In this document: piece by piece, positions 14,817 to 57,015 of the stretch | How the letters are laid out: each line of letters begins with the position of its first letter | How positions within the stretch are numbered: position 1 is the stretch's first letter | Origin: Ralstonia pickettii DTP0602 | Lineage (GTDB): Bacteria > Pseudomonadota > Gammaproteobacteria > Burkholderiales > Burkholderiaceae | NCBI GenBank assembly: GCA_000471925.1 | Contig: CP006667.1 | Location: forward strand, 2,728,001-2,792,000 | Length of the DNA: 64,000 bases | Direction of reading: 5' to 3' | The notes under the pieces: generated by a model | Told to the model about the DNA's origin: nothing | The model's database searches: none | Seen by the model: the letters and a program-made list of their open reading frames with translations, nothing else | Made by a program: the position numbers and the translations under genes

Positions 14817-14884
14817 CATAACCCGTATGCATGGATTTTGTGATCGTTTGCATTTAGATGGTGCACAGGAGGAGGAGGAAAAAC

Positions 14885-15916: not shown

Positions 15917-15960
15917 TACGGCATCCCATCAAGACCGCCCCCCCACACGACAGCCTCCGG

Positions 15961-17034
15961 ATGACCATGAGCTTCCTCACACTGACCGGCCTCGCCAAGG
16001 CCTACGGCAGCGCCTTTGCCGTCGAGAACCTCAGTCTCGAAGTCCAGCGCGGAGAATTCCTTTCGCTGCTCGGGCCTTCGGGCTGCGGCAAGACCACCAC
16101 GCTGCAGATGATCGCGGGATTCATCGAACCGACGCGCGGCCGCGTCGTGCTGGACGGGCGCGACATCACCGCGCTGCGCCCGGAGAAGCGCGGCATGGGC
16201 GTGGTGTTCCAGAGCTATGCGCTGTTTCCCCATATGACGGTGGCAGCGAACATCGGCTTCGGGCTGGAAATGCGCGGCGTGGCAGCGGCCGAGCGCTCGC
16301 GTCGCATCGACGAGGCGCTGGAGCTCGTGCGCCTTGGTGGTCTGGGCAAGCGTTATCCGAAGGAACTGTCCGGCGGCCAGCGCCAGCGCGTGGCGATCGC
16401 CCGCGCGCTGGCCATCCGGCCGGAAGTGCTGCTGCTCGATGAACCGATGTCCAACCTCGATGCCAAGCTGCGAGAGGACATGCATATCGAGCTGCGCGCA
16501 ATCCAGCGGCATCTCGGCATCACCACGATCCTGGTAACGCACGACCAGGTCGAGGCCATGACCATGAGCGACCGCATTGCAGTGATGCATGGCGGCCGCA
16601 TCGTGCAACTGGCCACGCCCTTCGAAGCGTACGAGCGACCGCAATCGGCGTTTGCTTCCGGCTTCCTCGGCAAGACCAACAGCATCCGGGGCGTGGTCGA
16701 GAACACCAATCCACGTTGTTGCGAGATACGCCTGGGCGAGACCCTGGCGCACGTACCGCACGAGGGCCGCGAGGTCGGGCGCGACGTCCATGTCTACGTC
16801 CGTCCAGAGAAGATCCGCCTGGGCCAGGCCGGCGACGGCGGCATTCCCGCCACGGTACAGACGCGCCTGTTCCTCGGCAATCACTGGATGCTGGAAGTGG
16901 ACAGCGCGCTGGGCCCCCTGCGCGTGAGCCAGCCCAACCTCGGCGTGGCGCCGCCGGCGGAAGGCGCGGCGGTAAGCGTGCTGTGGTCCGATCACGACCT
17001 GCGCGTGCTGGCAACGGAGTCGCACCATGGCTGA
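15961..17034 (+). CDS. ABC importer ATPase, PotA-like
   Basis: 357 residues from ATG 15961 (a second ATG lies two codons later). Walker A GPSGCGKTT, Q-loop FQSYALFPH, signature LSGGQRQR, Walker B LLLDEPMSNLD and H-switch VTHDQ are all present in the first 240 residues; a TOBE/OB-fold regulatory domain (VYVRPEKIRLG) follows. Energises the importer at the cytoplasmic face. Its last eight bases overlap the first permease gene. Confidence 0.93.
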   Translation: MTMSFLTLTGLAKAYGSAFAVENLSLEVQRGEFLSLLGPSGCGKTTTLQMIAGFIEPTRGRVVLDGRDITALRPEKRGMGVVFQSYALFPHMTVAANIGFGLEMRGVAAAERSRRIDEALELVRLGGLGKRYPKELSGGQRQRVAIARALAIRPEVLLLDEPMSNLDAKLREDMHIELRAIQRHLGITTILVTHDQVEAMTMSDRIAVMHGGRIVQLATPFEAYERPQSAFASGFLGKTNSIRGVVENTNPRCCEIRLGETLAHVPHEGREVGRDVHVYVRPEKIRLGQAGDGGIPATVQTRLFLGNHWMLEVDSALGPLRVSQPNLGVAPPAEGAAVSVLWSDHDLRVLATESHHG

Positions 17035-17962
17035 TACCGCCACGCCGAACCTGCCCGGCGGCAATATCGCCGCCCCTTCCTCCACATCGACCAACAACCG
17101 CAGGCCGCTCGCCAATGCCGCGCCGTGGCTGCTGTCGGCCCCGGCCCTGCTGCTGTTCTGTGGCTTGCTGCTGATCCCGCTGGCGCTGACGGCGTTGCTG
17201 TCCTTGCACGCCTTCGACGGCACGCGCGGCGTGCTGCCGGAGATGACGGCGGCCAACTACCTGGAGATCCTGGGCGACAGCTATTACCACGAGATCTTCC
17301 TGCGCACGGCGGGCATGGCGCTGGCGGTCACGTTGCTGTCGATCCTGTTCGGCGTGCCGGAGACGATCATCCTGTCGCGCATGGGCAGCCCCTGGCGCGG
17401 CCTGTTCCTGATCGTGATTCTCGGGCCGCTGCTGATCTCGGTGGTGGTGCGCACGCTGGGCTGGGCCATCCTGATGGGCAACAACGGGCTGATCAACGAG
17501 GCGCTGCAATGGCTGGGCATCGTGGACGGACCCGTGAAGCTGGTCTTCACGCAGACCGGCGTGATCGTCGCGCTGACGCACGTGATGATGCCCTTCATGG
17601 TGATCTCGGTCTGGGCCTCGCTGCAGAAGCTCGATCCCCAGGTCGAGCAGGCCGGCCAGGCCTTTGGCGCCTCGCCCTTCACCGTGTTCCGCCGCGTGGT
17701 GCTGCCGCAGATCATGCCGGGCATCCTGTCGGGCAGCATCATCGTCTTCGCGCTCTCGGCATCGGCCTTCGCCACGCCGGCGATCCTGGGCGGGCGCCGC
17801 CTCAAGGTGGTGGCCACGGCCGCCTACGACGAGTTCCTGAATACGTTGAACTGGCCGCTGGGCGCCTCGATCGCCGTGCTGCTGCTGATGGCCAACGTGG
17901 TCGTGATCGTCGGCTGCAACCGGCTGGTGGAGCGTCGCTTCCGCCAGGTATTCGAAGGGTAA
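17027..17962 (+). CDS. ABC importer permease, PotB-like
   Basis: 311 residues, six predicted membrane helices after a Thr/Ser/Asn-rich cytoplasmic N-terminus. The ATPase-coupling EAA loop is present (EQAGQAFGASPFTVFRRVVL, the last third of the protein). It pairs with the permease encoded 12 bases downstream to form the channel. Confidence 0.92.
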   Translation: MADTATPNLPGGNIAAPSSTSTNNRRPLANAAPWLLSAPALLLFCGLLLIPLALTALLSLHAFDGTRGVLPEMTAANYLEILGDSYYHEIFLRTAGMALAVTLLSILFGVPETIILSRMGSPWRGLFLIVILGPLLISVVVRTLGWAILMGNNGLINEALQWLGIVDGPVKLVFTQTGVIVALTHVMMPFMVISVWASLQKLDPQVEQAGQAFGASPFTVFRRVVLPQIMPGILSGSIIVFALSASAFATPAILGGRRLKVVATAAYDEFLNTLNWPLGASIAVLLLMANVVVIVGCNRLVERRFRQVFEG

Positions 17963-17974
17963 GGAGTCGCAAGC

Positions 17975-18769
17975 ATGCGCAAGAATGGACTGGTCTCGCT
18001 GCTGTACCACAGCCTCTTCATCGCTTTCATGGTCGCGCCGCTGCTGGTGGTGGTCGCGGTGTCCTTCACCGGCAAGGGCTATATCTCGATGCCGACCGAC
18101 GGCCTATCGCTGCGCTGGTTCCGCGCCATCGGGGATGCGCGCGAGATCGTCGATGCGTTCCGGCTGTCGCTGATGCTCGGCCTGGTCAGCGCCACCATCG
18201 CCGTGGCGCTGGCCGTGCCGGCGGCGCTGGCACTGGTGCGCCACCGCTTTCCCGGCCGGGGTGCGCTGATGGGGTTCTTCCTGTCGCCGCTGATGATTCC
18301 GCACGTCGTGCTCGGGGTGGCGTTCCTGCGGTTCTTCACCACGCTGGGCGTGACCGGATCGTTCTTCTGGCTTGCGCTGACGCATGTGGTGGTGGTGATG
18401 CCCTACGCCTTGCGGCTGGTCCTGGCGGCTGCCACCGGGCTGGATCGCGATGCCGAACGGGCCGCGCTGTCGCTGGGCGCGACCCGCTTCACCGCGTTCC
18501 GCCGCGTGGTGCTGCCGCTGATCCTGCCCGGCGTTGCCGGTGGCTGGATGCTCGCCTTTATCCAGAGCTTCGACGAACTGACCATGACGGTGTTCGTGGC
18601 CACGCCCGGCACCACTACGTTGCCCGTGGCGATGTACAACCAGATCGCCCAGACCATCGACCCGCTGGTGGTCTCGGTTTCCACCGTGCTGATCGTGGGC
18701 ACGCTGGTGCTGATGGTGCTGCTTGACCGCATCGTGGGCCTTGACCGCGTGCTGATCGGCCGCCATTGA
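17975..18769 (+). CDS. ABC importer permease, PotC-like
   Basis: 264 residues, six hydrophobic segments. EAA loop ERAALSLGATRFTAFRRVVL. AAGGAG lies upstream of the ATG. Second half of the transmembrane channel for the importer encoded from 14885. The stop codon overlaps a possible TTG start of the following oxidoreductase. Confidence 0.92.
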   Translation: MRKNGLVSLLYHSLFIAFMVAPLLVVVAVSFTGKGYISMPTDGLSLRWFRAIGDAREIVDAFRLSLMLGLVSATIAVALAVPAALALVRHRFPGRGALMGFFLSPLMIPHVVLGVAFLRFFTTLGVTGSFFWLALTHVVVVMPYALRLVLAAATGLDRDAERAALSLGATRFTAFRRVVLPLILPGVAGGWMLAFIQSFDELTMTVFVATPGTTTLPVAMYNQIAQTIDPLVVSVSTVLIVGTLVLMVLLDRIVGLDRVLIGRH

Positions 18770-18795
18770 GCGCCGTTCCCGAAACTTCCATTGAC

Positions 18796-19923
18796 ATGAC
18801 GACAAGCGATCTGATCGTGATCGGCGGCGGCCTGGTAGGCACCGCCATCGCCTATGGCGCGGCACGCCAGGGCGCGCGCGTAACCATGCTCGACGAGGGC
18901 GACGATGCCTTCCGTGCCTCGCGCGGGAACTTCGGCCTGGTCTGGGTGCAGGGCAAAGGCTTCGGCATGGCGCCCTATGCACGCTGGACCATGGGCTCGG
19001 CCCGGCTCTGGCCGCAACTGCGCGATGCCTTGCGCGATGAAACCGATATCGATGTGCAGCTCAGGCAGCCAGGCGGATTTCATCTGTGTTTCTCCGGGCA
19101 GGAGATGGCGGCACGCCAGCAGCGCCTGCAGAGCATTCAGGACGATCTGGGCGGCGACTATCCGTTCGAGATGCTCGACCATCATGCGGTCGCACAACGA
19201 CTGCCCGGTGTGGGCCCCGCTGTCATCGGTGCCAGCTACACGCCGATGGACGGGCACACTAATCCGCTGAAGCTTCTGCGCGCCCTGCACAGCGCCTGCC
19301 AGCGCCGCGGTGTGCACATCCTTGGCCGGCACGGCGCGCAGCGAATCACGCCCGAAGCGGGCGGCTTTACGGTCCATTCCGGCAATACCCGTTTTGCGGC
19401 ACCGCGCATCGTGCTCGCCGCCGGCCTTGGCAATCGCCTTCTGGCGGAACAAGTCGGCCTGCATGCACCGGTGGCACCGAACCGCGGGCAGGTCCTCATC
19501 GGCGAACGCGTCGCGCATTGGCTCGACTTCCCGACGACCTACGTCCGCCAGACCGACGAAGGCACGATCCAGCTCGGCGACTCGATGGAGGACGTCGGCC
19601 TTGACGACGGCACCACCGTCGACGTGCTCGCCAGCATCGCGCAACGCGGCGTGCGCAGCTTCCCGGCCCTGGCCGGGCTCAAGCTGGTACGCGCGTGGGG
19701 CGCGTTGCGCGTGATGAGCCCGGACGGCTTTCCGATCTACCAGGAAAGCGCCAGCCATCCGGGCGCTTTCGTCACGACCTGCCACAGCGGCGTCACGCTG
19801 GCGGCCGCGCACGCCTTCCTGGTCGCCCCGTGGGTGGCCGGCGGCTCGCAGCCACCGGGCATCGACGTCTTTGCGGGCGACCGCTTCCTGAATGCCAACC
19901 AGCCTTTCCATCATGCCCACTGA
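18796..19923 (+). CDS. DadA-like FAD-dependent amine/amino-acid oxidoreductase
   Basis: 375 residues from ATG 18796; a TTG at 18766 overlapping the permease stop would add ten residues. Rossmann FAD motif at the N-terminus (DLIVIGGGLVGTAIAYGAA) with the acid of strand 2 in MLDEGDDAF. The C-terminal half has the DAO-family strand LKLVRAWGALRVMSPDGFPIY and the FVTTCHSGVTLAAAHA segment that closes over the flavin. The family oxidises D-amino acids, glycine, sarcosine or proline derivatives. It is one of two such subunits in this operon, the other at 21640-22797. It overlaps the small [2Fe-2S] gene by 11 bases. Confidence 0.88.
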   Translation: MTTSDLIVIGGGLVGTAIAYGAARQGARVTMLDEGDDAFRASRGNFGLVWVQGKGFGMAPYARWTMGSARLWPQLRDALRDETDIDVQLRQPGGFHLCFSGQEMAARQQRLQSIQDDLGGDYPFEMLDHHAVAQRLPGVGPAVIGASYTPMDGHTNPLKLLRALHSACQRRGVHILGRHGAQRITPEAGGFTVHSGNTRFAAPRIVLAAGLGNRLLAEQVGLHAPVAPNRGQVLIGERVAHWLDFPTTYVRQTDEGTIQLGDSMEDVGLDDGTTVDVLASIAQRGVRSFPALAGLKLVRAWGALRVMSPDGFPIYQESASHPGAFVTTCHSGVTLAAAHAFLVAPWVAGGSQPPGIDVFAGDRFLNANQPFHHAH

Positions 19924-20278
19924 GCGCTTGTTCCAACGGATCGCCCCGCCTGCAGGCAGTGCCGGCGCGGCCACCGTCACCATCGAATTCAACGGCGACC
20001 CGCGCCAGGTGCCGGCACAGTGCAGCGTCGCCGCGGCACTGCTGGCCAGCGGCGTGACGCGCTTCCGCAATTCCCCCGTCAGCGGCGCACCGCGCGCGCC
20101 GTACTGCATGATGGGCGTGTGCTTCGAATGCCTGATGGAGATCGACGGCGAGCCCAGCCGGCAGAGCTGCCTGGTCACGGTCCGCGAGGGGATGCGCGTG
20201 CGCACCCAGGATGGCGCCCGCACGCTGCCCTTGCCGCCCGTGCAAATCGATCACGCCGAGGAGGTCGAGCATGGCTGA
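19913..20278 (+). CDS. Small [2Fe-2S] subunit of FAD dehydrogenase, HcnA/OoxA-N-like
   Basis: 121 residues from ATG 19913, overlapping the end of the preceding gene. A ferredoxin-like protein with cysteines C65, C70, C73 and C86 (C-x4-C-x2-C-x12-C, in CMMGVCFECLMEIDG and RQSCLVTV). This is the small electron-transfer subunit of heterotrimeric dehydrogenases related to hydrogen cyanide synthase, D-hydroxyproline dehydrogenase and opine oxidase. It overlaps the next subunit gene by eight bases. Confidence 0.88.
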   Translation: MPTERLFQRIAPPAGSAGAATVTIEFNGDPRQVPAQCSVAAALLASGVTRFRNSPVSGAPRAPYCMMGVCFECLMEIDGEPSRQSCLVTVREGMRVRTQDGARTLPLPPVQIDHAEEVEHG

Positions 20279-21650
20279 CATGGACGTCGATATCGCCATC
20301 ATCGGCGCGGGCCCGGCCGGCATGGCTGCCGCGGTGGCCGCCGCCGCAAACGGCGCACGCGTGGCGCTGCTCGACGAGCAGGACGCCTGCGGCGGACAGA
20401 TCTATCGCGCGATCCAGAGCGCCACGCCGGAACGCCTGCGCATTCTCGGCCCCGATTATGCCGCGGGGCGCGCGCTGGCCGACCGGTTCGCCGCCAGTGG
20501 CGCGCTGCATATCACCGGTGCGGCGGTCTGGCAGGTCACACGCGAGCACACCGTCCACTACCTGCGCGGGGGCAGCGTCGCCAGCCTGCAGGCAAGGCAG
20601 GTCATCCTGTGCACTGGCGCCATGGAACGCCCCTTCCCGATTCCGGGCTGGACCTTGCCCGGCGTACTGACCGCGGGCGCCGCGCAGATCCTGCTCAAGA
20701 GCGCTGACGTGGTACCGGCCGAACCCGTGGTGCTGGCCGGCTGCGGGCCGCTGCTCTACCTGCTGGGATGGCAGTACGTCCGCGCCGGGGTGCCGATTCG
20801 CGCCATCGTCGATACGACGGATGGCGCGGATCACCAGCGCGCACTCGCGCACCTGGGCGGTGCGCTCGCCGGCTGGCGCTACCTGAAGAAGGGACTGGCG
20901 CTGATGCGAACGCTCAAGCGCAGCGGTGTGCCGTTCCACAAGGGCGCCGCCGCGCTGCACGTGGAAGGCGAGACGGCCGTGCAAGCACTGCGCTTCACCA
21001 GCGGCGGCAAGGCCCAACGCATCAAGACGTCAGCCGTACTGCTGCACCAGGGCGTCGTGCCGAATACCCAGTTCACCTGGGCCCTGCGCGCGGCGCATCG
21101 CTGGGACGACGCCCAGCTTTGCTGGCAACCCGTAGTCGATGAATGGGGCGCGCTGGACATCCCCGGCATCCTGGTGGCTGGCGACGGCGGCGGCATTGGC
21201 GGCGCCGTGGCTGCCGCCCTGCAGGGCGAGCTGGCCGGCCTTGCCGCAGCCCACAATGTCGGCAAACTCGACGCGGCGCAACGTGACCGGCTGGCGGCGC
21301 CGCTGCGCCCGGCGCTTCGGTCCAACCTCAGGATCCGGCCTTTCCTCGATGCGTTGTACCGCCCCAAGGCGGCAAACCGCGTGCCGGCGGACGATGTGGT
21401 CGTCTGCCGCTGCGAGGAAGTGACCGCGGGCGATATCCGCGGCTTTGTGCAGCTCGGCTGCAGCGGCCCCAACCAGACCAAGTCCTTTGGACGATGCGGC
21501 ATGGGCCCGTGCCAGGGCCGCCAGTGCGGGCTGACCGTGACCGAGATCATCGCCGACGCGCGCAAGGTCTCGCCGCAGGAAGTGGGCTACTACCGCATCC
21601 GCCCCCCCATCAAGCCAATCACGCTTGGAGAGCTGGCCCGTGAACCCTGA
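20271..21650 (+). CDS. FAD/NAD-type dehydrogenase subunit with C-terminal [2Fe-2S] domain, HcnB/OoxA-like
   Basis: 459 residues. N-terminal FAD motif DIAIIGAGPAGMAAAVAAA, a second dinucleotide-binding motif after residue 150 (VVLAGCGPLLYLLGW), and the FAD-closing segment GILVAGDGGGIGGAVAAALQG. The last 90 residues form a BFD-like [2Fe-2S] domain with cysteines in CRCEEVT, GRCGMG and CQGRQC. It would pass electrons between the DadA-like subunit and the small ferredoxin subunit. Gene overlaps on both sides support one heteromeric complex. Confidence 0.9.
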   Translation: MADMDVDIAIIGAGPAGMAAAVAAAANGARVALLDEQDACGGQIYRAIQSATPERLRILGPDYAAGRALADRFAASGALHITGAAVWQVTREHTVHYLRGGSVASLQARQVILCTGAMERPFPIPGWTLPGVLTAGAAQILLKSADVVPAEPVVLAGCGPLLYLLGWQYVRAGVPIRAIVDTTDGADHQRALAHLGGALAGWRYLKKGLALMRTLKRSGVPFHKGAAALHVEGETAVQALRFTSGGKAQRIKTSAVLLHQGVVPNTQFTWALRAAHRWDDAQLCWQPVVDEWGALDIPGILVAGDGGGIGGAVAAALQGELAGLAAAHNVGKLDAAQRDRLAAPLRPALRSNLRIRPFLDALYRPKAANRVPADDVVVCRCEEVTAGDIRGFVQLGCSGPNQTKSFGRCGMGPCQGRQCGLTVTEIIADARKVSPQEVGYYRIRPPIKPITLGELAREP

Positions 21651-22797
21651 TACCGCAACGGGTGCCGATGTCATTGTCATCGGCGGCGGGCTGCAGGGAA
21701 CCTCCAGCGCGCTGCATCTGGCACGCCGGGGTCTGCGCGTCACGCTGCTGGAAGCCGAGTATTGCGGCCGGCATGCCTCCGGCGTCAATGCCGGGGGGGT
21801 GCGCACGCTGGGCCGGCACGTCGCCGAGATCCCGCTCGCGTTGGCCGCGCGCGAGTTGTGGCACCGGCTCGCCGAACTGACCGGAGACGACGCGGACTTC
21901 GTGCCGAGCGGACAGCTGAAAGTGGCGGAAACCGACGCGGAACTCGATGTCCTGCGCCAACGCGTGGCGGAACTCGAGGCCCTCGGCTTCACCCACGAGA
22001 CCATCGTTGACGGGCACACCGTGCGCGAACTCGTACCCGCCATCGCGCCGCATGTGACGGGCGCTATCTGGGTGCGGGACGATGGCCACGCGTTGCCCTA
22101 TCGTGCCGTCACCGCCTTCCGCAGGGCCGCCGAGCGCGCGGGCGTGAGCGTGCATGAAGCCACGCCGGCACAGCGCGTGGCGTACATGGGCAACCAATGG
22201 CAGGTGAACACGCCGCGCGGCGTATTCCGCGCAGGCCAGCTGGTCAACACAGCCGGCGCCTGGGCAGGCGAGTTCGCGGCGCAGATCGGCGAACCGGTGC
22301 CCGTCGAGGCGGGCGGACTGATGCTGATGATCACCCATCGTGTCGCGCCGTTCGTCAAACCCGTGCTTGGCGCGACCGGACGTGCCCTTTCATTCAAGCA
22401 GTTTGCCAACGGCACGGTACTGATCGGCGGCGGCCTGCGCTGCCCGGCGGACATCGAGGCGCGTCACGGCGAAGTCGACATGCTCAAACTCGGCACCAGC
22501 GCGCAGACCGTGACCGCCCTCTTCCCGCATCTCGGCCCGCTCGGCATCAATCGCGCGTGGGCCGGCGTGGAGGCCTTCATGCCCGACCAGATCCCGGTCA
22601 TCGGTCCCAGCCGCACGGCGCCGGGCGTGGTGCATGCGTTCGGGTTTTCCGCACATGGCTTCGAGCTGGGGCCAATCGTCGGGCAGATCGTCGCCGAGCT
22701 GGTCACCAAAGGACGTAGTACATTGCCGATCGACGCCTTTGCCGTCGACCGCTTCAGCAAACCCCGCGCCGCCGTTGCAGGCGCGTTGCGGGACTAG
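21640..22797 (+). CDS. DadA-like FAD-dependent oxidoreductase, HcnC/OoxB-like
   Basis: 385 residues from GTG 21640 (GGAG nine bases upstream; a TTG at 21625 is an alternative). FAD motif VIVIGGGLQGTSSALHLARRG, catalytic-domain strand INRAWAGVEAFMPDQIPVIG and the GFSAHGFELGP closing loop. This is the substrate-oxidising subunit expected to work with the HcnA- and HcnB-like partners. The start overlaps the previous stop. Substrate is unknown; opine, D-hydroxyproline and other N-substituted or D-amino acids are used by relatives. Confidence 0.9.
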   Translation: MNPDTATGADVIVIGGGLQGTSSALHLARRGLRVTLLEAEYCGRHASGVNAGGVRTLGRHVAEIPLALAARELWHRLAELTGDDADFVPSGQLKVAETDAELDVLRQRVAELEALGFTHETIVDGHTVRELVPAIAPHVTGAIWVRDDGHALPYRAVTAFRRAAERAGVSVHEATPAQRVAYMGNQWQVNTPRGVFRAGQLVNTAGAWAGEFAAQIGEPVPVEAGGLMLMITHRVAPFVKPVLGATGRALSFKQFANGTVLIGGGLRCPADIEARHGEVDMLKLGTSAQTVTALFPHLGPLGINRAWAGVEAFMPDQIPVIGPSRTAPGVVHAFGFSAHGFELGPIVGQIVAELVTKGRSTLPIDAFAVDRFSKPRAAVAGALRD

Positions 22798-22838
22798 CCA
22801 TCTTTCTTGTTCAACCCTGAGCCTTGAGGAAATACACA

Positions 22839-23192
22839 ATGAGCGAAATCCAGCGCTTCGATTCCAGCAAACGCCTGTCCCGCATCGTCGTGCACAACGG
22901 CGTGGTCTACGTAGCCGGCGTCACCGCAAGCGACACCTCCGGCGATATCGGCGCGCAAACCCGCGACGTGCTTGCCAAGATCGAGGGCTATCTCTCCAGC
23001 GTCGGCAGCGACAAGACCAGGCTGCTGTCCGCGCAGATCTGGCTCAAGGACATCGACAGCGATTTCGCCGGCATGAACGCAGCCTGGGAAGCGTGGATCC
23101 CGGAAGATGCCGTGCCGACCCGCGCCACCTGCGAAGCGAAGCTGGCCCGGCCGGAATTGCTGGTCGAGATTATCGTGACTGCGGCGGTCTGA
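22839..23192 (+). CDS. RidA (YjgF/YER057c) family enamine/imine deaminase
   Basis: 117 residues; GAGGA precedes the ATG. The family core is clear: VVHNGVVYVAGVTAS, the trimer-interface strand LLSAQIWLKDIDSDFAGMNAAWEAWI, the substrate arginine in VPTRATCEAKLA, and VEIIVTAA at the C-terminus. RidA proteins hydrolyse reactive imines released by FAD- and PLP-dependent enzymes. As last gene of this operon it would clear the imine made by the dehydrogenase subunits. Confidence 0.92.
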   Translation: MSEIQRFDSSKRLSRIVVHNGVVYVAGVTASDTSGDIGAQTRDVLAKIEGYLSSVGSDKTRLLSAQIWLKDIDSDFAGMNAAWEAWIPEDAVPTRATCEAKLARPELLVEIIVTAAV

Positions 23193-25027: not shown

Positions 25028-25099
25028 ACTGATTCTTGACAAGCTTTACGCGCGGCATACCGACGCGCGCTCCTTCGTTGAGGCTCCGGCCCTCTCCCC

Positions 25100-25129
25100 C
25101 ACCCATCTCCCGCGCGCGGGAGATGGGTG
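25100..25129. repeat. 30-base perfect palindrome beside the IS110 remnant
   Basis: CACCCATCTCCCGCG followed at once by its reverse complement (25100-25129), preceded by a C-rich stretch (CCCTCTCCCC). It resembles the REP-like extragenic palindromes based on CTCCCGC/GCGGGAG that are frequent in GC-rich proteobacteria. Confidence 0.6.
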
Positions 25130-25147
25130 CGTATGCCTGGGCACGGG

Positions 25148-25584
25148 GCTTTGCTCAGATGTGCGAGCGTGCGGATGCGCGGCTTTTAACTCGATGGCCT
25201 ACCGAGAAACACTTCACCGCATGGATGGGCCTGGCACCGGGAAGCCGCCAAAGCGGCAAGCGCCGCGGCAGCGTCAAACGCCACCGCAATCGCGCCGGTC
25301 GACTGTTCTGCCTGATGGCCCGGAGTCTGGCGCGTAGCAAGGACATCGCCTTGGGTGGCTTCTACCGACGCATGGCAGCACGACGCGGCGCACTGATTGC
25401 CAACATTGCGTTGGCACGCAAGCTGGCCATCCTCTTCTGGCGCGTCATGGTTAAGGGAATGCAGTACGTCGAAAGTGGCTTGGCACACTACGAGGCCCGC
25501 GTCCTCGAAACCAAACGGCGGGCACTCAGGCACCTGGCCAAACAACTCGGCCAGGAGCTAGTTCCCCTCCCTACTGCCGCATAG
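25148..25584 (+). pseudogene. IS110-family transposase, C-terminal remnant
   Basis: About 145 residues match the C-terminal Transposase_20 domain of IS110/IS1111-type transposases: RWPTEKHFTAWMGLAPG, SGKRRGSVKRHRNRAG, FYRRMAARRGALIANIALARKLA and HYEARVLETKRRALRHLAKQ. The N-terminal DEDD catalytic domain is missing, so the element cannot move itself. In-frame codons continue upstream to 25036 but do not look transposase-like. No element ends or target duplications could be fixed by eye. Confidence 0.8.
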
Positions 25585-25705: not shown

Positions 25706-26434
25706 TTAAGCCGCGCTGACAAACAACCGCATCGCCGGCATCACCTGCGATGCCTGTTCAGGCCGATCCAGCGCACTCTCCAGATTCATGCGTGCCACGT
25801 TGACGTGTTCCGTCGCAAGCGCCTGCGCGCGCGCGCCTTCGCCGCGCCGCATGGCGTCGAACAAGCTGTGATGCTGCCGGTGTGCATAGACCAGCCATTG
25901 CCCGCCCTCTTCCACCGCCGACTGCATCGGCAACATGGCGCTCGCCGCGGCGAATGGCAACCGGTTGTTGAGTTCGATGGCCCGTGCCAGCGCGCTGTTG
26001 CCGCTGCCCTCGACGATCAGCGCGTGAAAGCGATCGTTCATATTGCTGTACGCGACATAGTCGTCGTAGTCGAGCTGTGCCTTGGTCAGGACCCGGTCGC
26101 CTTCGCGCAGGCAGTCCTGGAGGTCCAGCGATAGTTGCCGTGACAGCCCATGCTCGGCAACCAGCCGCGCGGCCATGCCCTCCAGGTGTCCGCGTACCGC
26201 GATCGCATCCTGGATCTCCCGCGGCGTGAAGCGGCGCATCATGTAGCCGCTGCTCGGCGAAGGCTCGATCAGCCCCTCCTGCTCCAGCGCGGCGAGCGCA
26301 AGCCGGACCGGCGTGCGCGAGACGCCGAGCTTCTCAGCCAGCGGGATCTCGGCCAGGCGGGCGCCCGGTTCGAATTCGCCCTTAAGAATCAGGTCGCGCA
26401 GTTGCACCAAGACCCGTGTCTGGTGGGATTCCAT
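25706..26434 (-). CDS. GntR/FCD-family regulator of the amine/Rieske cluster
   Basis: 242 residues; GAGGG precedes the ATG at 26434. Winged helix-turn-helix at residues 8-70 (RLAEIPLAEKLGVSRTPVRLALAALEQEGL), then an all-helical FCD effector domain with the metal-ligand pattern (D/N-R-FHALIVEGSGN, HRQHHSLFDAMRRGEG). FCD regulators are commonly repressors of neighbouring catabolic genes and respond to small carboxylates or related ligands. The gene is the last of the minus-strand cluster, 95 bases after the reductase gene, and has its own upstream copy of the CTGCATAC motif, consistent with autoregulation. Confidence 0.9.
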   Translation of the reverse strand: MESHQTRVLVQLRDLILKGEFEPGARLAEIPLAEKLGVSRTPVRLALAALEQEGLIEPSPSSGYMMRRFTPREIQDAIAVRGHLEGMAARLVAEHGLSRQLSLDLQDCLREGDRVLTKAQLDYDDYVAYSNMNDRFHALIVEGSGNSALARAIELNNRLPFAAASAMLPMQSAVEEGGQWLVYAHRQHHSLFDAMRRGEGARAQALATEHVNVARMNLESALDRPEQASQVMPAMRLFVSAA

Positions 26435-26465
26435 TACACACCCTCGTCAAATCGTAGCCGCGGCC

Positions 26466-26502
26466 GCTGCATGCGAGGTTGGCCGGGCTGCATACAATAT
26501 GC
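26466..26502. promoter_or_regulatory. CTGCATAC-type operator upstream of the GntR gene
   Basis: GCTGCATGC at 26466-26474, then CTGCATAC at 26488-26495; the latter overlaps a perfect inverted repeat GCATA-CAA-TATGC (26490-26502). The same eight-mer occurs three times in front of the Rieske gene, so this is probably the GntR autoregulatory site. Confidence 0.55.
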
Positions 26503-26529
26503 GTCATGGTACACCAGACAACGGCCTGA

Positions 26530-27771
26530 TCAGCTCGGAAACAGGCTCTTCAGCGCGACAGAGTCATCAGCGAGCACATCGGGATCGGGGCGAACGCGCG
26601 CGGCGATCAGGCGCCGTGCCGCCATGTGATCCTGCGGGCGGTTGATCGAATCCGCGGCGACGATCACTTCCTGCTTCAGGTACACGGCCGTGAATCGCCC
26701 CGCCAGCACGTCGCCGCGCACCACCGCCTGGTCATGCCCCGCCGAGAAGCCAGCCATCTGCAGCTTGTAGCCATGCTGGTCCGACCAGAACCACGGCACC
26801 GCCTCGTACGGCGCGGGACGATCGGCAACCGTCGCACCGGCCACCCTGGCGAGGTCGTTCGCGCTTTGTATAGATTCGACGCGCACGCACCGGCCTTGCG
26901 CTTCGCTCGCATCCGTAGGCATCCATGGATTTGGATACGCAGCACAATCGCCGGCCGCGACAATGGCGGGATCGCTGGTGCGCGCAAAGCGGTCGACCAC
27001 GATGCCGTTGTCCACCGTCAGGCCGCAGTCCTCGGCAAGCTCCACGTTCGGTACCACGCCGAGGCCTGCGATGACCAATTCCGCCGGAAGGACCTCGCCG
27101 GAATCGAGCTCGACCCCGCTGACCGCATCATTGCCGAGCAGCCGCAGAATCCGGGTCGCAAGCCGAATGCGGACCCCTTGCCGCTGATGCACCGTCTGCA
27201 GGAACGTCGAGATCAGTGGCGGCACCGCGCGCTGCAGCAACCGCTCCTGCAACTCGACCACGGTCACATCGAGGCCGAGCGTGCGCAACGACGCCGCCAC
27301 CTCCAGCCCGATAAAGCCGCCGCCCACTACCACGGCCTTGCTGGCCTCCCGCGCACGCGCCTTGATGTCGCACGCATCCGCGAGGTCGCGCAGGTAGTAG
27401 ACGTGGCGCAGTTCCGCTCCCTCGCATGGCAGGCGCCGACAGCGCGCCCCAGTGGTCAGGGCCAGGTGGTCGTAGCGCAGCAGTGCCCCGTCGGACAATG
27501 CAACCGTGCGCGCCTGCCGGTCGATGCGGCGCGCCGAGACTCCGGTCCGCAGCGTGATCCGCTCTTCCCTGAACCGCTCGGGCGACTGCAGCGGCAGGCT
27601 CGATGCATCCACCGCGTCGCTCAGGAAGCCCTTGGACAGCGGCGGCCGCTGGTACGGTGCGTGGGGCTCGTCGCCGATCATGGTGATGCTGCCCTGGAAG
27701 CCGTTGGCGCGCGCGGCCAGCGCCAGCTGGGTGCCCGCGTAGGAGGCCCCGATGATGACGAGATCGGCCAT
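26530..27771 (-). CDS. FAD-dependent ferredoxin reductase of a Rieske oxygenase system
   Basis: 413 residues. FAD-binding start DLVIIGASYAGTQLALAARANG, the QRPPLSKGFL motif of putidaredoxin/rubredoxin reductases, the NAD-binding VVVGGGFIGLEVAASLRTLG, and the IVAAGDCAAYPNPW segment that contacts FAD. It moves electrons from NADH to the [2Fe-2S] ferredoxin, whose gene ends only three bases upstream. Normal length for the family. Confidence 0.93.
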   Translation of the reverse strand: MADLVIIGASYAGTQLALAARANGFQGSITMIGDEPHAPYQRPPLSKGFLSDAVDASSLPLQSPERFREERITLRTGVSARRIDRQARTVALSDGALLRYDHLALTTGARCRRLPCEGAELRHVYYLRDLADACDIKARAREASKAVVVGGGFIGLEVAASLRTLGLDVTVVELQERLLQRAVPPLISTFLQTVHQRQGVRIRLATRILRLLGNDAVSGVELDSGEVLPAELVIAGLGVVPNVELAEDCGLTVDNGIVVDRFARTSDPAIVAAGDCAAYPNPWMPTDASEAQGRCVRVESIQSANDLARVAGATVADRPAPYEAVPWFWSDQHGYKLQMAGFSAGHDQAVVRGDVLAGRFTAVYLKQEVIVAADSINRPQDHMAARRLIAARVRPDPDVLADDSVALKSLFPS

Positions 27772-27774
27772 GGT

Positions 27775-28098
27775 CTACCCCTGCTTTTCCGGGACGCGCA
27801 CGACCAGGCCGTCGAGCGCGTCGGTCACGACGATCTGGCAGCTGAGCCGGCTGGCCGGCTGCCGTACGGCCGCCACGCCCTCGAGCAGTTCGTCTTCCAT
27901 TTCGTCGGGCGCGGGCATATGGTCGGCCCAGGGCGAATCGATATACACATGGCAGGTCGCGCAGGAACAGCAACCGCCGCACTCCGCATCGATCCCGCGG
28001 ACATTGTTGGCGATCGCGACTTCCATCAGCGTCTTGCCGCTGGCCGAAGCCACTTCCTTGCGGCTGCCGTCTTTCAGGACATAGGTAATCGTCGGCAT
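27775..28098 (-). CDS. Putidaredoxin-type [2Fe-2S] ferredoxin
   Basis: 107 residues. Cluster cysteines C40, C46, C49 and C87 (CGGCCSCATC ... RLSCQIVV), exactly the spacing of putidaredoxin/adrenodoxin-type ferredoxins, with two extra cysteines at 43 and 44. Carries electrons from the reductase (3 bases downstream) to the Rieske oxygenase. Twenty-one bases after the glutamine-synthetase-like gene. Confidence 0.94.
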   Translation of the reverse strand: MPTITYVLKDGSRKEVASASGKTLMEVAIANNVRGIDAECGGCCSCATCHVYIDSPWADHMPAPDEMEDELLEGVAAVRQPASRLSCQIVVTDALDGLVVRVPEKQG

Positions 28099-28119
28099 GA
28101 CATCCTCACTGCGGTTCGG

Positions 28120-29556
28120 TTAAAACGTGTCGAAGTACTCGCGCTGCTCCCAGTCGCTCACCTCAAGATTGAAGCGCGCGATCTCGGCCTGCTTGATATG
28201 GCAGAAGTAGTCGACAAAGCCACTGCCCATGCCTTCACGCAGGGCAGCGTCTTCTTTCAGGCAGGCCAGCGCCTCGTCGAGCGTCCTGGGCAGATGGGGT
28301 GCGGGGGTCTCGTATGGCGAATCGGCGGACGGGCCCGGATCCAGGCGCCACTGGATACCGTCCAGCCCCGAGATGGCCTGCGACGCGAGATAGAGATAGG
28401 GATTTGCCGCGGGTTCGCCCACGCGGTTTTCGATGCGCGTGGCCGCATCGCCCGCGCCGCCCAGCACCCGCAGCATTGCGCCGCGGTTGTCGCGCGCCCA
28501 GATCGCGCGGTCGGGCGCCAGCGAATAGGCACGGAACCGCTTGTAGCCATTGATGGTCGGCGTGGAGAACGCGGTCGCCGCGCAGGCGTGCTGCAGCAGG
28601 CCGGCCAGGTAATGACGCCCGGTCGCGGACAGGTCTTGCCCGGCCTCGTCCGGCATCATCGCATTCGCGCCGTTGTCCAGCCGCTTCAGCGACTGGTGCA
28701 GGTGCCATCCGCTCGACACTACGTTGCGGATCTTCGGGCGGCACATAAAGGTCGCGTGGTAGCCATGCCGCTTGCACACCTGCTTGACGGCGCTGCGGAA
28801 CAACACCATCGCGTCCGCGGTGGCAACCGGCGTCGCCGGCGCGAAGGTGAATTCGAACTGGCTGGGACCGAACTCGATTTCCAGCGACCGCACCGGCAGG
28901 CCGAGCTGCTGCACGTTCTTGCGGATCAGCTCGATCACTTCCTCGGTCGCGTCATAGCGCAGCTCTGTCAGGAACTGGTAGCCGTGCGACAACAGCTCGA
29001 CCTCGGGCGGCTCGCCCGGCTGGCCGGCATCGTCCGGCGTCATGTGTTCGCGCAGCAGGCGGAACACATGGAACTCGACTTCCAGTCCGGTGACGAGCTG
29101 GTATCCCGCTGCCGCGAGGCGCTCCTCCGCGTTGCGCAGGATGCGGCGGGTGGCAAAGGGCACCGCCCTGCCATCCTGGAAATACGGATCGCAAAGCAGC
29201 CAGCCGGTGCGCGGCGACCAGGGCAGCACGCGGAAGGTGGTGGGATCGGGAACCAGCGTGACGTCCGCCCCGCCCAGCATGCCAGGCATGTCGAAGCCGC
29301 CGCCAGAACTGAACACGGGGAACACCGTCCGGTGCGAAGTGTCCTTGGCGAACAGCGTGGTGGTCACGTTCACGTCGCCGCGCAACGCCTTGATCGCCTC
29401 CGACGCGACCAGCGTCTTGCCGCGCAGCACGCCATGCTGGTCCGGGAAGGAAAAGCGCACCACGTCGATGTCTCCCCCGGCGAGCTGACGCGCAACGTCG
29501 TCAGCAGCACGGGCATGGGTATCGGTCCAGAGGCCGAATTGTTCTACAAGCGCCAT
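28120..29556 (-). CDS. Glutamine-synthetase-like gamma-glutamyl-amine ligase
   Basis: 478 residues from ATG 29556; a longer frame to 29679 enters the oxygenase gene and is unlikely. The GS fold is clear: beta-grasp N-domain (FSFPDQHGVLRGKTL), metal-site glutamates in TGLEVEFHVF and SLEIEFGPSQFEFTF, the SSGWHLHQSL histidine motif, and the RIENRVGEPAANPYLYLASQ active-site arginine motif. It lacks the adenylylation Tyr region of GlnA and belongs with the PuuA/IpuC/TdnQ/AtdA1 group, which attach glutamate to an amine using ATP. Neighbouring oxygenase and PuuD-like hydrolase support an amine substrate rather than ammonium. Confidence 0.88.
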   Translation of the reverse strand: MALVEQFGLWTDTHARAADDVARQLAGGDIDVVRFSFPDQHGVLRGKTLVASEAIKALRGDVNVTTTLFAKDTSHRTVFPVFSSGGGFDMPGMLGGADVTLVPDPTTFRVLPWSPRTGWLLCDPYFQDGRAVPFATRRILRNAEERLAAAGYQLVTGLEVEFHVFRLLREHMTPDDAGQPGEPPEVELLSHGYQFLTELRYDATEEVIELIRKNVQQLGLPVRSLEIEFGPSQFEFTFAPATPVATADAMVLFRSAVKQVCKRHGYHATFMCRPKIRNVVSSGWHLHQSLKRLDNGANAMMPDEAGQDLSATGRHYLAGLLQHACAATAFSTPTINGYKRFRAYSLAPDRAIWARDNRGAMLRVLGGAGDAATRIENRVGEPAANPYLYLASQAISGLDGIQWRLDPGPSADSPYETPAPHLPRTLDEALACLKEDAALREGMGSGFVDYFCHIKQAEIARFNLEVSDWEQREYFDTF

Positions 29557-29635
29557 ATGGGTCCGGCTCGCCGCATCGTGCAACGCGGTGGAGCCGCCTC
29601 GGTTAGTTAGTCGTGATCCTGTGGCTGCGTACCGG

Positions 29636-30949
29636 TCAGGCGCGCGACGCCCATTCCGATTCGGCCCGGCGCTTGGCATCGGCCCCGACCCAGTAGTCGT
29701 CGGGCGACTGCTCCACGCTGACCCCGTCGATCGATGCCGGCCCGGTAAGCGTACTGGCCTGCTGCGCGTCCACCATCATCAGCGCCCTCTCGCCGCGCTG
29801 GTTTGCCTCGATCGCCGCGACCAGCTGCTTGCGGTAGGCGATGATGCCCTTGTCGGTGGTGCCCAGGTGCTCGCGGGTGCGGTCCTGGATCGCGCCCTGC
29901 GATTCCACGGCCCACTGGTCGTGGACGTTGATGTCGTGGCCCATGCCCGTGTAGGTCTGCGTGCGCTGCTCGTAGGGGTTGAAGCCGTAGTGGTTGCGCT
30001 TGTTCAGCCGCGGGCGGTAGTCGGGCAGTTCGTACAGCGCCAGGCGCTGGTCGCGCATCTGCTGCTTGTCGACCGGCGCGGTGAAGCTGGTGAAGATGGC
30101 GTACCAGTAGCAACTGGTGTCGTCGACCGGCACATGCCATTGCGCAATCGTCATCTCGGCGCTCATCGGGATAATGAACGCCTGCGGAAACACGACGTTG
30201 GTCACGCGCACATGCTGCTGGCCGTCGCCGAGTTCGCGCAAGGCGGTCAGCCGCATGCCGTAGTCGGTCGGCGCGATGCTGATTTCCGGGCAGTCGAATT
30301 CACGGAGCACCTTCGTGATCGGCATGCCGGAATCGGCCGACGCGCCGCGAAACTGCTTGCCGTAGCTTTCCGCGACGTCTTCATCCTCGAAGAACCGGTG
30401 CAGGAAGGAAGCGTGCGCCGGATCGATGCCGACCTCGAGCGCCTGCAGCCAGTTGCACTCGAGCAATCCCTTGAAGGCGAAGGTGTACTGGTCAGGGGCG
30501 ACAAAGCAGTCAAAGGCCGGGAATGCCGGCGGCTCGCCTTCGCCGATAAAGGCAAACAGCACGCCGCCGCGCTCGACGATCGGATAGGCGTTCTGGCGGA
30601 TGCGCTGGCACAGCTTGCTGCCGGCGGGTTCCGCGGGCGTTTCCAGGCACGTGCCGGTACGGTCGAACAGCCAGCCGTGAAACGGGCAGCGCAGGCCGCC
30701 GTCCTCCAGCCTCCCGAAGCTCAGGTCCGCACCGCGGTGCGGGCAATCACGATCCAGCATCGCGTAGTGGCCTTGCTCGTCGCGGAACACGACGAAGTCC
30801 TGGCCCATCAGGCGCACGGCGCGCACCGGGCGCTCACCTTCGAACTCGTCCACCAGCGCAACCGGTTGCCAGTATTGCCGCAACAGCTTGCCGGCTGGGG
30901 TATCCGCGCCGACGCGGGTGATGAGTTCGTTCTGTTCCTTGGACATCAT
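29636..30949 (-). CDS. Single-subunit Rieske non-haem iron oxygenase
   Basis: 437 residues. Rieske centre C69-x-H71 and C88-x2-H91 (CPHRG, CPFHGW). Mononuclear iron motif D176-x2-H179-x4-H184 (GIDPAHASFLH). The N-terminus (LITRVGADTPAGKLLRQYWQPVAL) is typical of phthalate/phenoxybenzoate-type oxygenases with alpha subunits only; no beta-subunit gene is present. It needs the ferredoxin and reductase encoded downstream. The start at 30949 follows AGGAG; a second ATG is the next codon. First gene of the minus-strand operon, 79 bases before the ligase gene. Reaction probably hydroxylation, dealkylation or deamination of the gamma-glutamylated amine or its parent. Confidence 0.92.
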   Translation of the reverse strand: MMSKEQNELITRVGADTPAGKLLRQYWQPVALVDEFEGERPVRAVRLMGQDFVVFRDEQGHYAMLDRDCPHRGADLSFGRLEDGGLRCPFHGWLFDRTGTCLETPAEPAGSKLCQRIRQNAYPIVERGGVLFAFIGEGEPPAFPAFDCFVAPDQYTFAFKGLLECNWLQALEVGIDPAHASFLHRFFEDEDVAESYGKQFRGASADSGMPITKVLREFDCPEISIAPTDYGMRLTALRELGDGQQHVRVTNVVFPQAFIIPMSAEMTIAQWHVPVDDTSCYWYAIFTSFTAPVDKQQMRDQRLALYELPDYRPRLNKRNHYGFNPYEQRTQTYTGMGHDINVHDQWAVESQGAIQDRTREHLGTTDKGIIAYRKQLVAAIEANQRGERALMMVDAQQASTLTGPASIDGVSVEQSPDDYWVGADAKRRAESEWASRA

Positions 30950-30994
30950 GATGGGGACATCTCCTGCTGGGTGGGTGGTTCCTGGGTGGGTTTT

Positions 30995-31040
30995 GCTGTA
31001 TGCAGCGTCGTTGTATGCAGCATATTATTTGCTGCATACA
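30995..31040. promoter_or_regulatory. Operator cluster upstream of the Rieske gene
   Basis: Three copies of GTATGCAG/CTGCATAC: 30998-31005, 31013-31020 and, inverted, 31032-31039. The last two form a perfect 11-base inverted repeat, TGTATGCAGCA (31012-31022) and TGCTGCATACA (31030-31040) with spacer TATTATT. It sits 46-91 bases from the Rieske start, where a repressor would block transcription. Confidence 0.75.
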
Positions 31041-31188
31041 GTCAAGACAAGGTCGATTTTGGGCGCATGCTCGGAAGCCATGCCGAACTTACTCCGCACT
31101 CGCGCCATTAAGTCACAATAGGCTATTGTTTTTATTATATATTTTCAGATATTTAGGGCCCATGAACTGAGGATTTAAGTGTTTACCC

Positions 31189-31238
31189 GCACCAACGAGG
31201 CGAGCTTCATATGACTGCTAAATAGCGCCTGTTGGTGC
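31189..31238. other. Large interrupted hairpin between divergent promoters
   Basis: GCACCAACGAGGCG (31189-31202) can pair with CGCCTGTTGGTGC (31226-31238): an 8-pair and a 5-pair helix with one bulged G around a 23-base AT-rich loop. Surrounding sequence is unusually AT-rich for this window (TTTTTATTATATATTTT at about 31129). It could be an additional regulator site, an RNA structure in the leader of the hydrolase gene, or a relic of a mobile element end. Confidence 0.4.
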
Positions 31239-31263
31239 ACATATTTTCATCTTTCTGGAATAT

Positions 31264-31294
31264 CTGCATGCAGCGATATATTATCTGCATGCAG
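31264..31294. promoter_or_regulatory. Paired palindromic operator upstream of the PuuD-like gene
   Basis: Two copies of the 10-base perfect palindrome CTGCATGCAG, at 31264-31273 and 31285-31294, 21 bases apart centre to centre (two helical turns), ending 30 bases before the hydrolase start. They share CTGCAT with the operators at 30995-31040 and 26466-26502. Confidence 0.7.
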
Positions 31295-31324
31295 TGATGA
31301 CCAGATGACCCAGGAGACCCACCT

Positions 31325-32107
31325 TTGCCCGCCCCCAACCCAATATCCGCCCAGCCCACACGTACCCATTGCCCGCTGGTCGGCATCGTCTGCGACCGGT
31401 TCTTCGTCGGGGATCACGACGTGCATGGCGTCAAGGAGAGCTACCGGCGCGCCCTTACCGAGGTCGCGCGCGTCGCACCGGTCTTTATCCCGGCCAGCGA
31501 GGACATCGATGACTTCAGCCCCTATCTGGCGTCGCTGTCCGGGCTGCTCTTTCCTGGCGGCGCGTCCAATGTCTCGCCCGGCCGTTACGGTGGACGCGAG
31601 TCTGCCGAATTCCTGGTCGACCGAGCGCGCGATCATGTCGCGCTGCACCTGATCCGGCGTGCCGCCGACCTCGGCATCCCGATGCTGGCGATCTGCCGCG
31701 GCTTCCAGGAAATGAACGTGGCCTTCGGCGGCACGCTGCGTGCCGATATCCATGCGGCCGGCCATTCGCCGGAGCACCGGGAAGACGCGTCGGAAGACCT
31801 GGTCGCACGCTATCGCTACAAGCACACGGTCGCGCTCGCGCGGGACGGCATGTTCAGCGCATGGATCGGTGACGCAAGCGCGCGCGTCAATTCCCTGCAT
31901 ACGCAAGGCATCGACACATTGGGGAACAACCTCGCGGTCGAGGCCAGCACCGATGACGGCCTGGTCGAGGCGATCCGCGTCGAGGGCGTCAAGTTTGCGG
32001 TGGGTGTGCAATGGCACCCGGAAGTCACGGCCGATTCCGATCCGCTATCCCGGTCGTTGTTCACCCACTTCGGCGACGCGTGCCGGCGTTACGCACGGCA
32101 CGCCTGA
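31325..32107 (+). CDS. PuuD-like gamma-glutamyl hydrolase (class I glutamine amidotransferase fold)
   Basis: 260 residues. Nucleophile Cys124 in LAICRGFQEMNVAFGG and the catalytic His231/Glu233 in VQWHPEVT; the oxyanion segment LLFPGGASNVSPGRY is also present. The family removes the glutamyl group from gamma-glutamyl amines (PuuD, putrescine; relatives in isopropylamine and aniline pathways). The start is the TTG at 31325, preceded by GGAGA; no in-frame ATG occurs until residue 120. Divergent from the Rieske operon over a 375-base region with matching operators, so the two are probably co-regulated. Confidence 0.88.
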   Translation: MPAPNPISAQPTRTHCPLVGIVCDRFFVGDHDVHGVKESYRRALTEVARVAPVFIPASEDIDDFSPYLASLSGLLFPGGASNVSPGRYGGRESAEFLVDRARDHVALHLIRRAADLGIPMLAICRGFQEMNVAFGGTLRADIHAAGHSPEHREDASEDLVARYRYKHTVALARDGMFSAWIGDASARVNSLHTQGIDTLGNNLAVEASTDDGLVEAIRVEGVKFAVGVQWHPEVTADSDPLSRSLFTHFGDACRRYARHA

Positions 32108-32218
32108 GCGCCGCCTTGCCGGAACCTGGACGGGTTCCGGATCGAACCCCTCGAATGAGGCGAACTCATTCACCGCAACATGGTGGTGGCGCTCAACGAC
32201 GGCGCAGCGCTCGGTGAC

Positions 32219-32314
32219 CCGAGAGGATGGTGCTACGGCGGCTGGGCGGTTCCTGTCCTCGAAGATCGCGTCAAACACGCGCAACAGGTTGAGATCGACT
32301 CTGCCGAGGTTCAT
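32219..32314 (-). pseudogene. LysR-family regulator, N-terminal fragment
   Basis: The ATG at 32314 begins MNLGRVDLNLLRVFDAIFED, a typical LysR N-terminus, but similarity stops after about 25 residues and the frame then continues in unrelated sequence. A decayed or truncated regulator gene. The region 32108-32550 holds nothing else I can support. Confidence 0.4.
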
Positions 32315-56738: not shown

Positions 56739-57015
56739 ACGACCTCCTTTGAGGCCATCAACGCGAGAACAGGGGTTGGTGGTTTGTCGCATATCGTTTG
56801 TCTCGTTTGTCCTCCTTTCCGTCCATTCAGGTGGCGTCTCGACTGACTGGCACTTGTAGCCAGAACGGTGCCATGACCGCTATCTCGTTGATTCTTTTCG
56901 GAGATGTCGCCGTGAGAGAACGGCCGGAAAGCGCAAAGCGGAAAATCGGTTTCAGAGTTGAGACGGGCTGGTTGGGGGGACCGGCCTGATGGGAAGTGTT
57001 CCGGTCGCCAACGCG

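Follow-up and report, generated by a model that had tools for sequence, protein, structure and literature searches.

Relationship to described arylamine pathways

The pairing of a single-subunit Rieske oxygenase with a glutamine synthetase (GS)-like ligase and a ferredoxin has already been described in the sad operon of Hydrogenophaga PBC, which encodes a 4-aminobenzenesulfonate 3,4-dioxygenase, its substrate being a dye chemical. The 2012 sad paper is said to have found sadB essential, with ferredoxin and reductase helping on expression in E. coli, and one of SadC and SadD is presumably that reductase. The natural compound for the dioxygenase was left open in a 2017 paper on sad. Here we analyse a six-gene cluster (positions 25706–32107) of the soil bacterium Ralstonia pickettii DTP0602, contained in a stretch of 64 000 nucleotides (hereafter the window; positions 2728001–2792000 of contig CP006667.1, in a genome of 8.1 Mb). 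Its ligase and oxygenase genes probably mark it as a further member of the sad kind, and its fresh contribution lies in evidence on the natural substrate, which we take to be 4-aminobenzoate (p-aminobenzoate) with a probability of roughly 0.6, and in a residue mark in the amine pocket of the ligase. A literature search, with most subscription journals outside its coverage, found no gamma-glutamylating 4-aminobenzoate pathway, although one may exist in print.

A second close relative lies on plasmid pSA3 of a strain described as degrading sulfanilate, Novosphingobium resinovorum SA1 (PMC6167471). One region of this plasmid encodes homologues of all four window enzymes, with 64.5% identity for the Rieske oxygenase, 59.2% for the ligase, 46% for the reductase and 42% for the ferredoxin, and may be responsible for sulfanilate degradation by SA1. 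Kinship to sad was measured via these pSA3 homologues. A separate reductase gene is evident by sequence in the window and in pSA3, and reportedly occurs in the PBC operon. The original prediction for this locus, made from the DNA letters of the window, had proposed that the combination of genes might define a different amine substrate and did not name sad, in which the combination is already described.

The aniline and 1-naphthylamine clusters (tdn, atd, dca and npa) resemble the window in combining a GS-like gamma-glutamylamide synthetase, an amidotransferase-type hydrolase and a Rieske oxygenase. The clusters of pLME1 and pTB30, which we take to be of the aniline type, encode an alpha/beta oxygenase and one reductase, as the original prediction had stated for aniline clusters, whereas the window has a single oxygenase subunit with a separate ferredoxin and reductase. 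An alpha/beta Rieske oxygenase with a single reductase was not found among the six window genes, and the window oxygenase matches the pLME1 alpha subunit at 25.8% identity over 178 aa. A mixed layout is present on a Corynebacterium plasmid (L112:2884–10837), where a Phe-type ligase (see below) and a GntR regulator accompany an alpha/beta oxygenase, a ferredoxin separate from the FAD reductase, and a pair of amidotransferase-type genes. The Puu system of E. coli shares the logic of a ligase plus a gamma-glutamyl hydrolase, and the hydrolases are homologous (36.8% identity), but its ligase is distant (23.7%), the six window genes include nothing like PuuB or PuuC, and the context of the window's relatives is aromatic. 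Finally, the pnb locus, which takes 4-nitrobenzoate via 4-hydroxylaminobenzoate to protocatechuate, has the same end product as we propose for the window cluster, but its chemistry involves neither glutamylation nor an oxygenase.

Gene content and recurrence of the cluster

All six reading frames are open, and each matched its expected family in profile searches. Five genes lie on the minus strand with short gaps between them, in the order Rieske oxygenase, ligase, ferredoxin, reductase and regulator. The SadA-like oxygenase (29636–30949), a single (alpha) subunit of the LigXa_C/phthalate type, matches PF00355 (75.3 bits) and PF19301 (93.0 bits) and carries the Rieske motif C-x-H...C-x2-H from residue 69 and D-x2-H-x4-H from residue 176; its best relatives in the PDB are 7fjl, 7fhr and 9ina. 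The SadB-like gene for a predicted GS-like amine gamma-glutamyl ligase (28120–29556; Gln-synt_C, PF00120, 274.4 bits) is taken to start at the ATG at 29556, a longer version from the ATG at 29679 being less likely as it would overlap the Rieske gene. It is followed by genes for a putidaredoxin/adrenodoxin-type [2Fe-2S] ferredoxin with its cluster cysteines present (27775–28098; Fer2, PF00111), an FAD-dependent ferredoxin reductase (26530–27771; Pyr_redox_2 and Reductase_C, PF07992 and PF14759) and a GntR/FCD regulator (25706–26434; PF00392 and PF07729). No beta-subunit gene was seen among the six cluster genes, and the domain matches agree with the phthalate-type, alpha-only oxygenase with separate ferredoxin and reductase that had been predicted.

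The sixth gene, on the plus strand and divergent from the oxygenase operon, encodes a PuuD-like gamma-glutamyl hydrolase (31325–32107; Peptidase_C26, PF07722, 201.8 bits) with the Cys of an ICRG motif and a WHPE motif. It scores 159.8 bits with NF008471, below the cut-off of 266. All six genes of the predicted unit are real, but since the hydrolase gene is divergent, ‘one unit’ here means an operon plus one divergent gene.

Related loci were surveyed by scanning one genome per species and keeping the best 80 of 549 encoding stretches, with at most 9 kb fetched per side and some contigs cut; gene adjacency is given as raw counts. The GS-like gene lies beside the Rieske gene in 80/80 loci, accompanied by a ferredoxin gene in 71, a GntR gene in 70, a reductase gene in 44 and a PuuD-like gene in 22, while 12 carry another class-I amidotransferase. 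All six occur together within the fetched stretch in 22 loci, and the genes do co-occur in other genomes, as predicted. Unlike sad, 70 of these loci add the regulator and 22 the hydrolase, and some sit in or beside pnb-type loci. In Burkholderia-type loci the PuuD-like gene directly follows the reductase gene on the same strand, and outside the window's family many clusters adjoin a branched-chain-type ABC transporter (binding protein in 36 of the 80 loci). The nearest named relative found was Cupriavidus necator A5-1 (L001), with an oxygenase 98% identical to that of the window. When 300 genomes of the order were drawn by even sampling, 30 matched the oxygenase at E 1e-60: 19 (the window's own included) at 54% identity or higher, and the other 11 at 34–39%.

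A predicted basic amine pocket in the ligase

Besides its pSA3 homologue, the ligase is related to the pLME1 enzyme (49.1% identity) and to NpaA1 (41.8%), and its best PDB relative, 8wwu (E 1.5e-128), differs from NpaA1 by one residue. Of the original description as PuuA/TdnQ-like, the TdnQ part holds, the enzyme being of the amine-glutamylating TdnQ/AtdA1 kind. A PuuA-like identity was rejected on both the low identity to PuuA and the score with NF045547 (231.7 bits against a cut-off of 650), and an ammonium-using GlnA, which would have contradicted the original prediction, is excluded by score (TIGR00653, 228.5 bits against 429; 29.3% identity).

In the NpaA1 structure (PMC11335346), the adjacent subunit contributes F75′ and F86′ to the lining of the amine tunnel, alongside W235, and aniline activity is nearly gone in the F75A variant. 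By alignment, both acidic residues matching NpaA1 E232 and E234 are retained in the window ligase. The position of F75′, which is Phe in aniline-type ligases, is instead occupied by Lys73 (codon 29344–29346, minus strand; numbering from the translation of 28120–29562), and a second basic residue, Arg78 (codon 29329–29331, minus strand), aligns with NpaA1 position 80. Residues were counted in 79 of the 80 relatives, L017 having been dropped by a length/stop filter. Position 75 is Lys in 79/79, with no hydrophobic residue like F75′ found in these or in the window ligase, and position 80 is Lys in 41 and Arg in 38. Lys at 75 together with Arg at 80 is also found in the ligases of pSA3, M. nodulans, Caballeronia, Palleronia, OM-1 and Pseudooceanicola, and JS666 shares the Lys. 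Among the remaining ligases, position 75 is Phe in nine, Val in YBL2 and His in Stutzerimonas; E. coli PuuA has Met there and GlnA a gap. A single one of the remaining ligases, from Streptomyces, has His at position 80. In the ligase tree the Phe/Val/His types, which include the aniline types, fall into a clade of their own with support of 96/98. The basic-type ligases were not shown to be monophyletic: the tree implies 2 changes, and a single origin appears in 23% of bootstrap trees.

The replacement of F75′ by Lys, together with Lys or Arg at position 80, suggests a substrate with an anionic ring substituent, and the predicted departure from aniline is probably correct. As read from the alignment, the pocket residues cannot tell a carboxylate from a sulfonate. 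A ligase of the same K/R type is encoded on a Pseudooceanicola plasmid (L096:5902–10510), after TRAP transporter genes and close to two further genes, one annotated as oxygenase alpha subunit and the other encoding a small Rieske protein.

A 4-nitrobenzoate-type neighbourhood

A gene of PF16155, the 4-hydroxylaminobenzoate lyase family, lies near the cluster in 22 of the 80 loci (199.8 bits in C. necator A5-1). LysR genes are found in 25 loci, including all 22 with the lyase, and nitroreductase genes in 14, of which 13 also have the lyase; an AAHS aromatic-acid transporter close to PcaK (545.6 bits against a cut-off of 770) is present in 22. When L098, L108 and L114 are added to give 25 lyase loci, 15 of these share the commonest order: GntR (opposite strand), Rieske, GS, ferredoxin, reductase, PuuD, LysR, MFS and PnbB (opposite strand), in some cases with a nitroreductase lying outside GntR. 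Lyase, nitroreductase and LysR genes are likewise near the cluster in the alphaproteobacterium Methylobacterium nodulans. Taken together, these neighbours resemble a p-nitrobenzoate-type (pnb) locus. P. terrae KU-15 grows on 4-nitrobenzoate, and its pnbA, pnbR and pnbB genes carry the tags 35570, 35500 and 35480 (PMC9302171). The tags step by ten, which leaves six genes in the interval from pnbA to pnbR and one in that from pnbR to pnbB; by tag arithmetic, with the sequence itself not seen, this spacing would fit exactly the gene content and order of L098 and L108.

A PF16155 match alone was rejected as proof of PnbB; the window genome's other copy adjoins an HTH/shikimate-kinase gene, presumably BoxR-like. 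Members of the family occur in box clusters (PMC6449761), and this other copy seems to belong with those. Because the family alone is unspecific, neighbouring genes and a tight subfamily were used instead. Other cluster-linked copies are 59–87% identical to the A5-1 lyase, while the remaining matches in a draw of 150 genomes of the window's family fall at 35–40%, bar one partial match at 65%. In this family draw, 43 genomes had a lyase match at E 1e-15, 10 had the full-length subfamily (63% identity or more) and seven had the oxygenase (at least 72%). Four had both the oxygenase and the full-length subfamily, in each case on one contig and 5.8–7.3 kb apart (Fisher p 0.0003).

With regard to the product, the window genome encodes PcaH (359.7 bits) beside a second gene of the same family, away from the cluster. 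On a Palleronia plasmid (L115:5950–12439), a K/R-type ligase gene lies approximately 0.7 kb from pcaBDGHC, on the other strand and with one small gene between, which hints at protocatechuate as the product.

Putative operator sites

The palindrome CTGYATRCAG was picked by eye from the window sequence, so its count there is partly chosen, and a better test comes from the other loci, although these are related. It occurs exactly four times in the 64 kb, always between the hydrolase and oxygenase genes, where 0.32 would be expected and 0/100 shuffles reach four. Three palindromes precede the oxygenase gene (30996–31041; starting at 30996, 31011 and 31032, that at 31011 with one mismatch), two recovered by the exact-motif search precede the PuuD-like gene (31264–31294), and a site with one mismatch precedes gntR (26488–26497). 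Allowing one mismatch across the 64 kb gives 11 sites where 7.5 would be expected, an excess that is not significant by itself. Across the related loci, the core TGYATRCA is present within 400 bp before the oxygenase gene in 72 of 86 (5.76 per kb, against 0.035 per kb elsewhere) and before gntR in 72 of 73, a divergent gntR sharing the sites of the oxygenase. Such sites precede the PuuD-like gene in just 3 of 24 loci. As a putative operator, the palindrome ties gntR to the oxygenase operon; on co-expression of the genes, the evidence consists of these shared operator-like sites.

A proposed route and its alternatives

In the route that we propose, the ligase would couple the gamma-carboxyl group of glutamate to the arylamine at the expense of ATP, while Lys73 and Lys/Arg78, contributed by the tunnel loop of the adjacent subunit, would hold the carboxylate (or sulfonate) on the ring. 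Electrons would pass from NAD(P)H via the reductase and ferredoxin to the single-subunit Rieske enzyme, which would dioxygenate ring carbons 3 and 4 of gamma-glutamyl-4-aminobenzoate, with loss of glutamine to yield protocatechuate. The PuuD-like hydrolase may split excess gamma-glutamyl-amine back to amine and glutamate, a role reported in a review for the amidotransferase of aniline degradation. Protocatechuate would then enter the pcaGH route encoded elsewhere in the genome, and GntR would act through the CTGYATRCAG sites to control the operon and its own gene and, in the window, possibly the divergent hydrolase gene as well.

More broadly, and with the odds evenly balanced, the sad-type system could be a general aerobic route from 4-aminobenzoate, via its gamma-glutamyl derivative, to protocatechuate, spread across the Burkholderiales and extending to Alphaproteobacteria. 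Within one family it would often be nested with 4-nitrobenzoate genes and thereby consume over-reduced 4-aminobenzoate as well; the use of sulfanilate would be later and secondary, and the Lys plus Lys/Arg pair of the tunnel loop would separate ligases for anionic arylamines from those for aniline.

Several observations weigh against 4-aminobenzoate. Among the relatives only sad has been tested, and it acts on the sulfonate; in the JS666 ligase the second basic residue is replaced by Gln. Compared with A5-1, the window itself is without most of the lyase gene, the nitroreductase and the transporter, and 58 of the 80 loci (some on cut contigs) have no lyase nearby. Outside the window's family the lyase link is mostly absent: at E 1e-20 the lyase was found in 0/300 genomes of the order draw, though 19 of these hold the oxygenase, and since the same query found matches in the family draw, this zero counts against a general pnb link. 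PF16155 is itself unspecific, with a box-cluster-like paralogue scoring 195.8 bits. Genes of the pca pathway were found near the cluster in 0/80 loci, and the Palleronia stretch is without an annotated Rieske gene.

In an alternative reading, the same chemistry would serve 4-aminobenzenesulfonate or another anionic arylamine, such as 3-aminobenzoate, aminosalicylate or a different para-amino aromatic acid, and give the matching catechol. The bacteria that carry sad and pSA3 both degrade sulfanilate, the basic pocket suits a sulfonate as well as a carboxylate, and the pnb link is missing from most other families. Set against this, the neighbours point to 4-substituted benzoates, in M. nodulans as in the window's family, and a maleylacetate reductase matching that of pSA3 was found in 0/80 loci; we regard such a substrate as unlikely. 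A pathway of the aniline type (tdn/atd/npa) in which the oxygenase has been exchanged and the ligase uses neutral anilines would account for the similarity to the pLME1 ligase and the retention of both acidic amine-site residues. It is hard to reconcile with Lys in every aligned relative at the position of F75′, which NpaA1 needs for aniline activity, with the separate clade of Phe/Val/His-type ligases or with an oxygenase that is approximately 26% identical over part of its length only, and seems very improbable.

We give equally little credence to a polyamine or alkylamine pathway of the Puu or IpuC kind, in which the Rieske enzyme would oxidize or demethylate an aliphatic amine. Rieske enzymes of the LigXa_C type include demethylases, the hydrolase is a homologue of E. 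coli PuuD, and genes for oxidases of the DAO family, the superfamily of PuuB, lie 3–7 kb away at 18766 and 21625. These DAO genes belong to another array, however; the ligase falls far below the PuuA cut-off, PuuB- and PuuC-like genes are missing from the six, and the relatives carry aromatic-acid transporter and pnb neighbours. A 4-aminobenzoate pathway of the sad type is the reading that we prefer.

Erosion of the locus and other features of the window

Relative to A5-1, the window has also lost the AraC gene and nearly all of the LysR gene, leaving scars of 70 bp and 67 bp at 32176–32314. The 70-bp scar is a remnant of a pnbB-like (PF16155) gene (32176–32245, plus strand), 93% identical to positions 5392–5323 of L001, within the PF16155 gene of that locus. 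The other holds the first codons of the LysR gene (32248–32314, minus strand) and matches L001 4314–4248. Adjacent pnbA, pnbB and pnbR genes were not found in the window, which has the lyase and LysR scars only. On the other side of the cluster, an IS110/IS116-type transposase remnant (25036–25584) lies beside gntR in place of the PcaK-like transporter gene of A5-1. The erosion has spared the six core genes, whose frames are still open.

The array that contains the two DAO genes (14858–23192, plus strand) encodes an ABC transporter (solute-binding protein, ATPase and two permeases), a DAO oxidase, a Fer2_4 protein, a Pyr_redox_2/SO_alpha_A3 protein, a second DAO oxidase and a RidA-like protein, and appears to serve in the uptake and oxidation of an opine or amino acid. 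Elsewhere in the window, a 1155-aa protein (49195–52662) resembles the fusion model of the TOMM system kinase/cyclase, with 491 bits against a cut-off of 706, and a 693-aa protein (54711–56792) has a C-terminal match to the radical copper oxidase GlxA (144 bits against 800).

Implications

The pnb neighbours, the basic pocket and the operator sites give a cheaply testable answer, p-aminobenzoate, to the question of the natural substrate of sad-type systems. The Lys and Lys/Arg residue mark may serve as a predictor of the arylamines accepted by gamma-glutamylating ligases. If the proposal is correct, these would be genes for the aerobic catabolism of p-aminobenzoate, a vitamin precursor and sunscreen agent.

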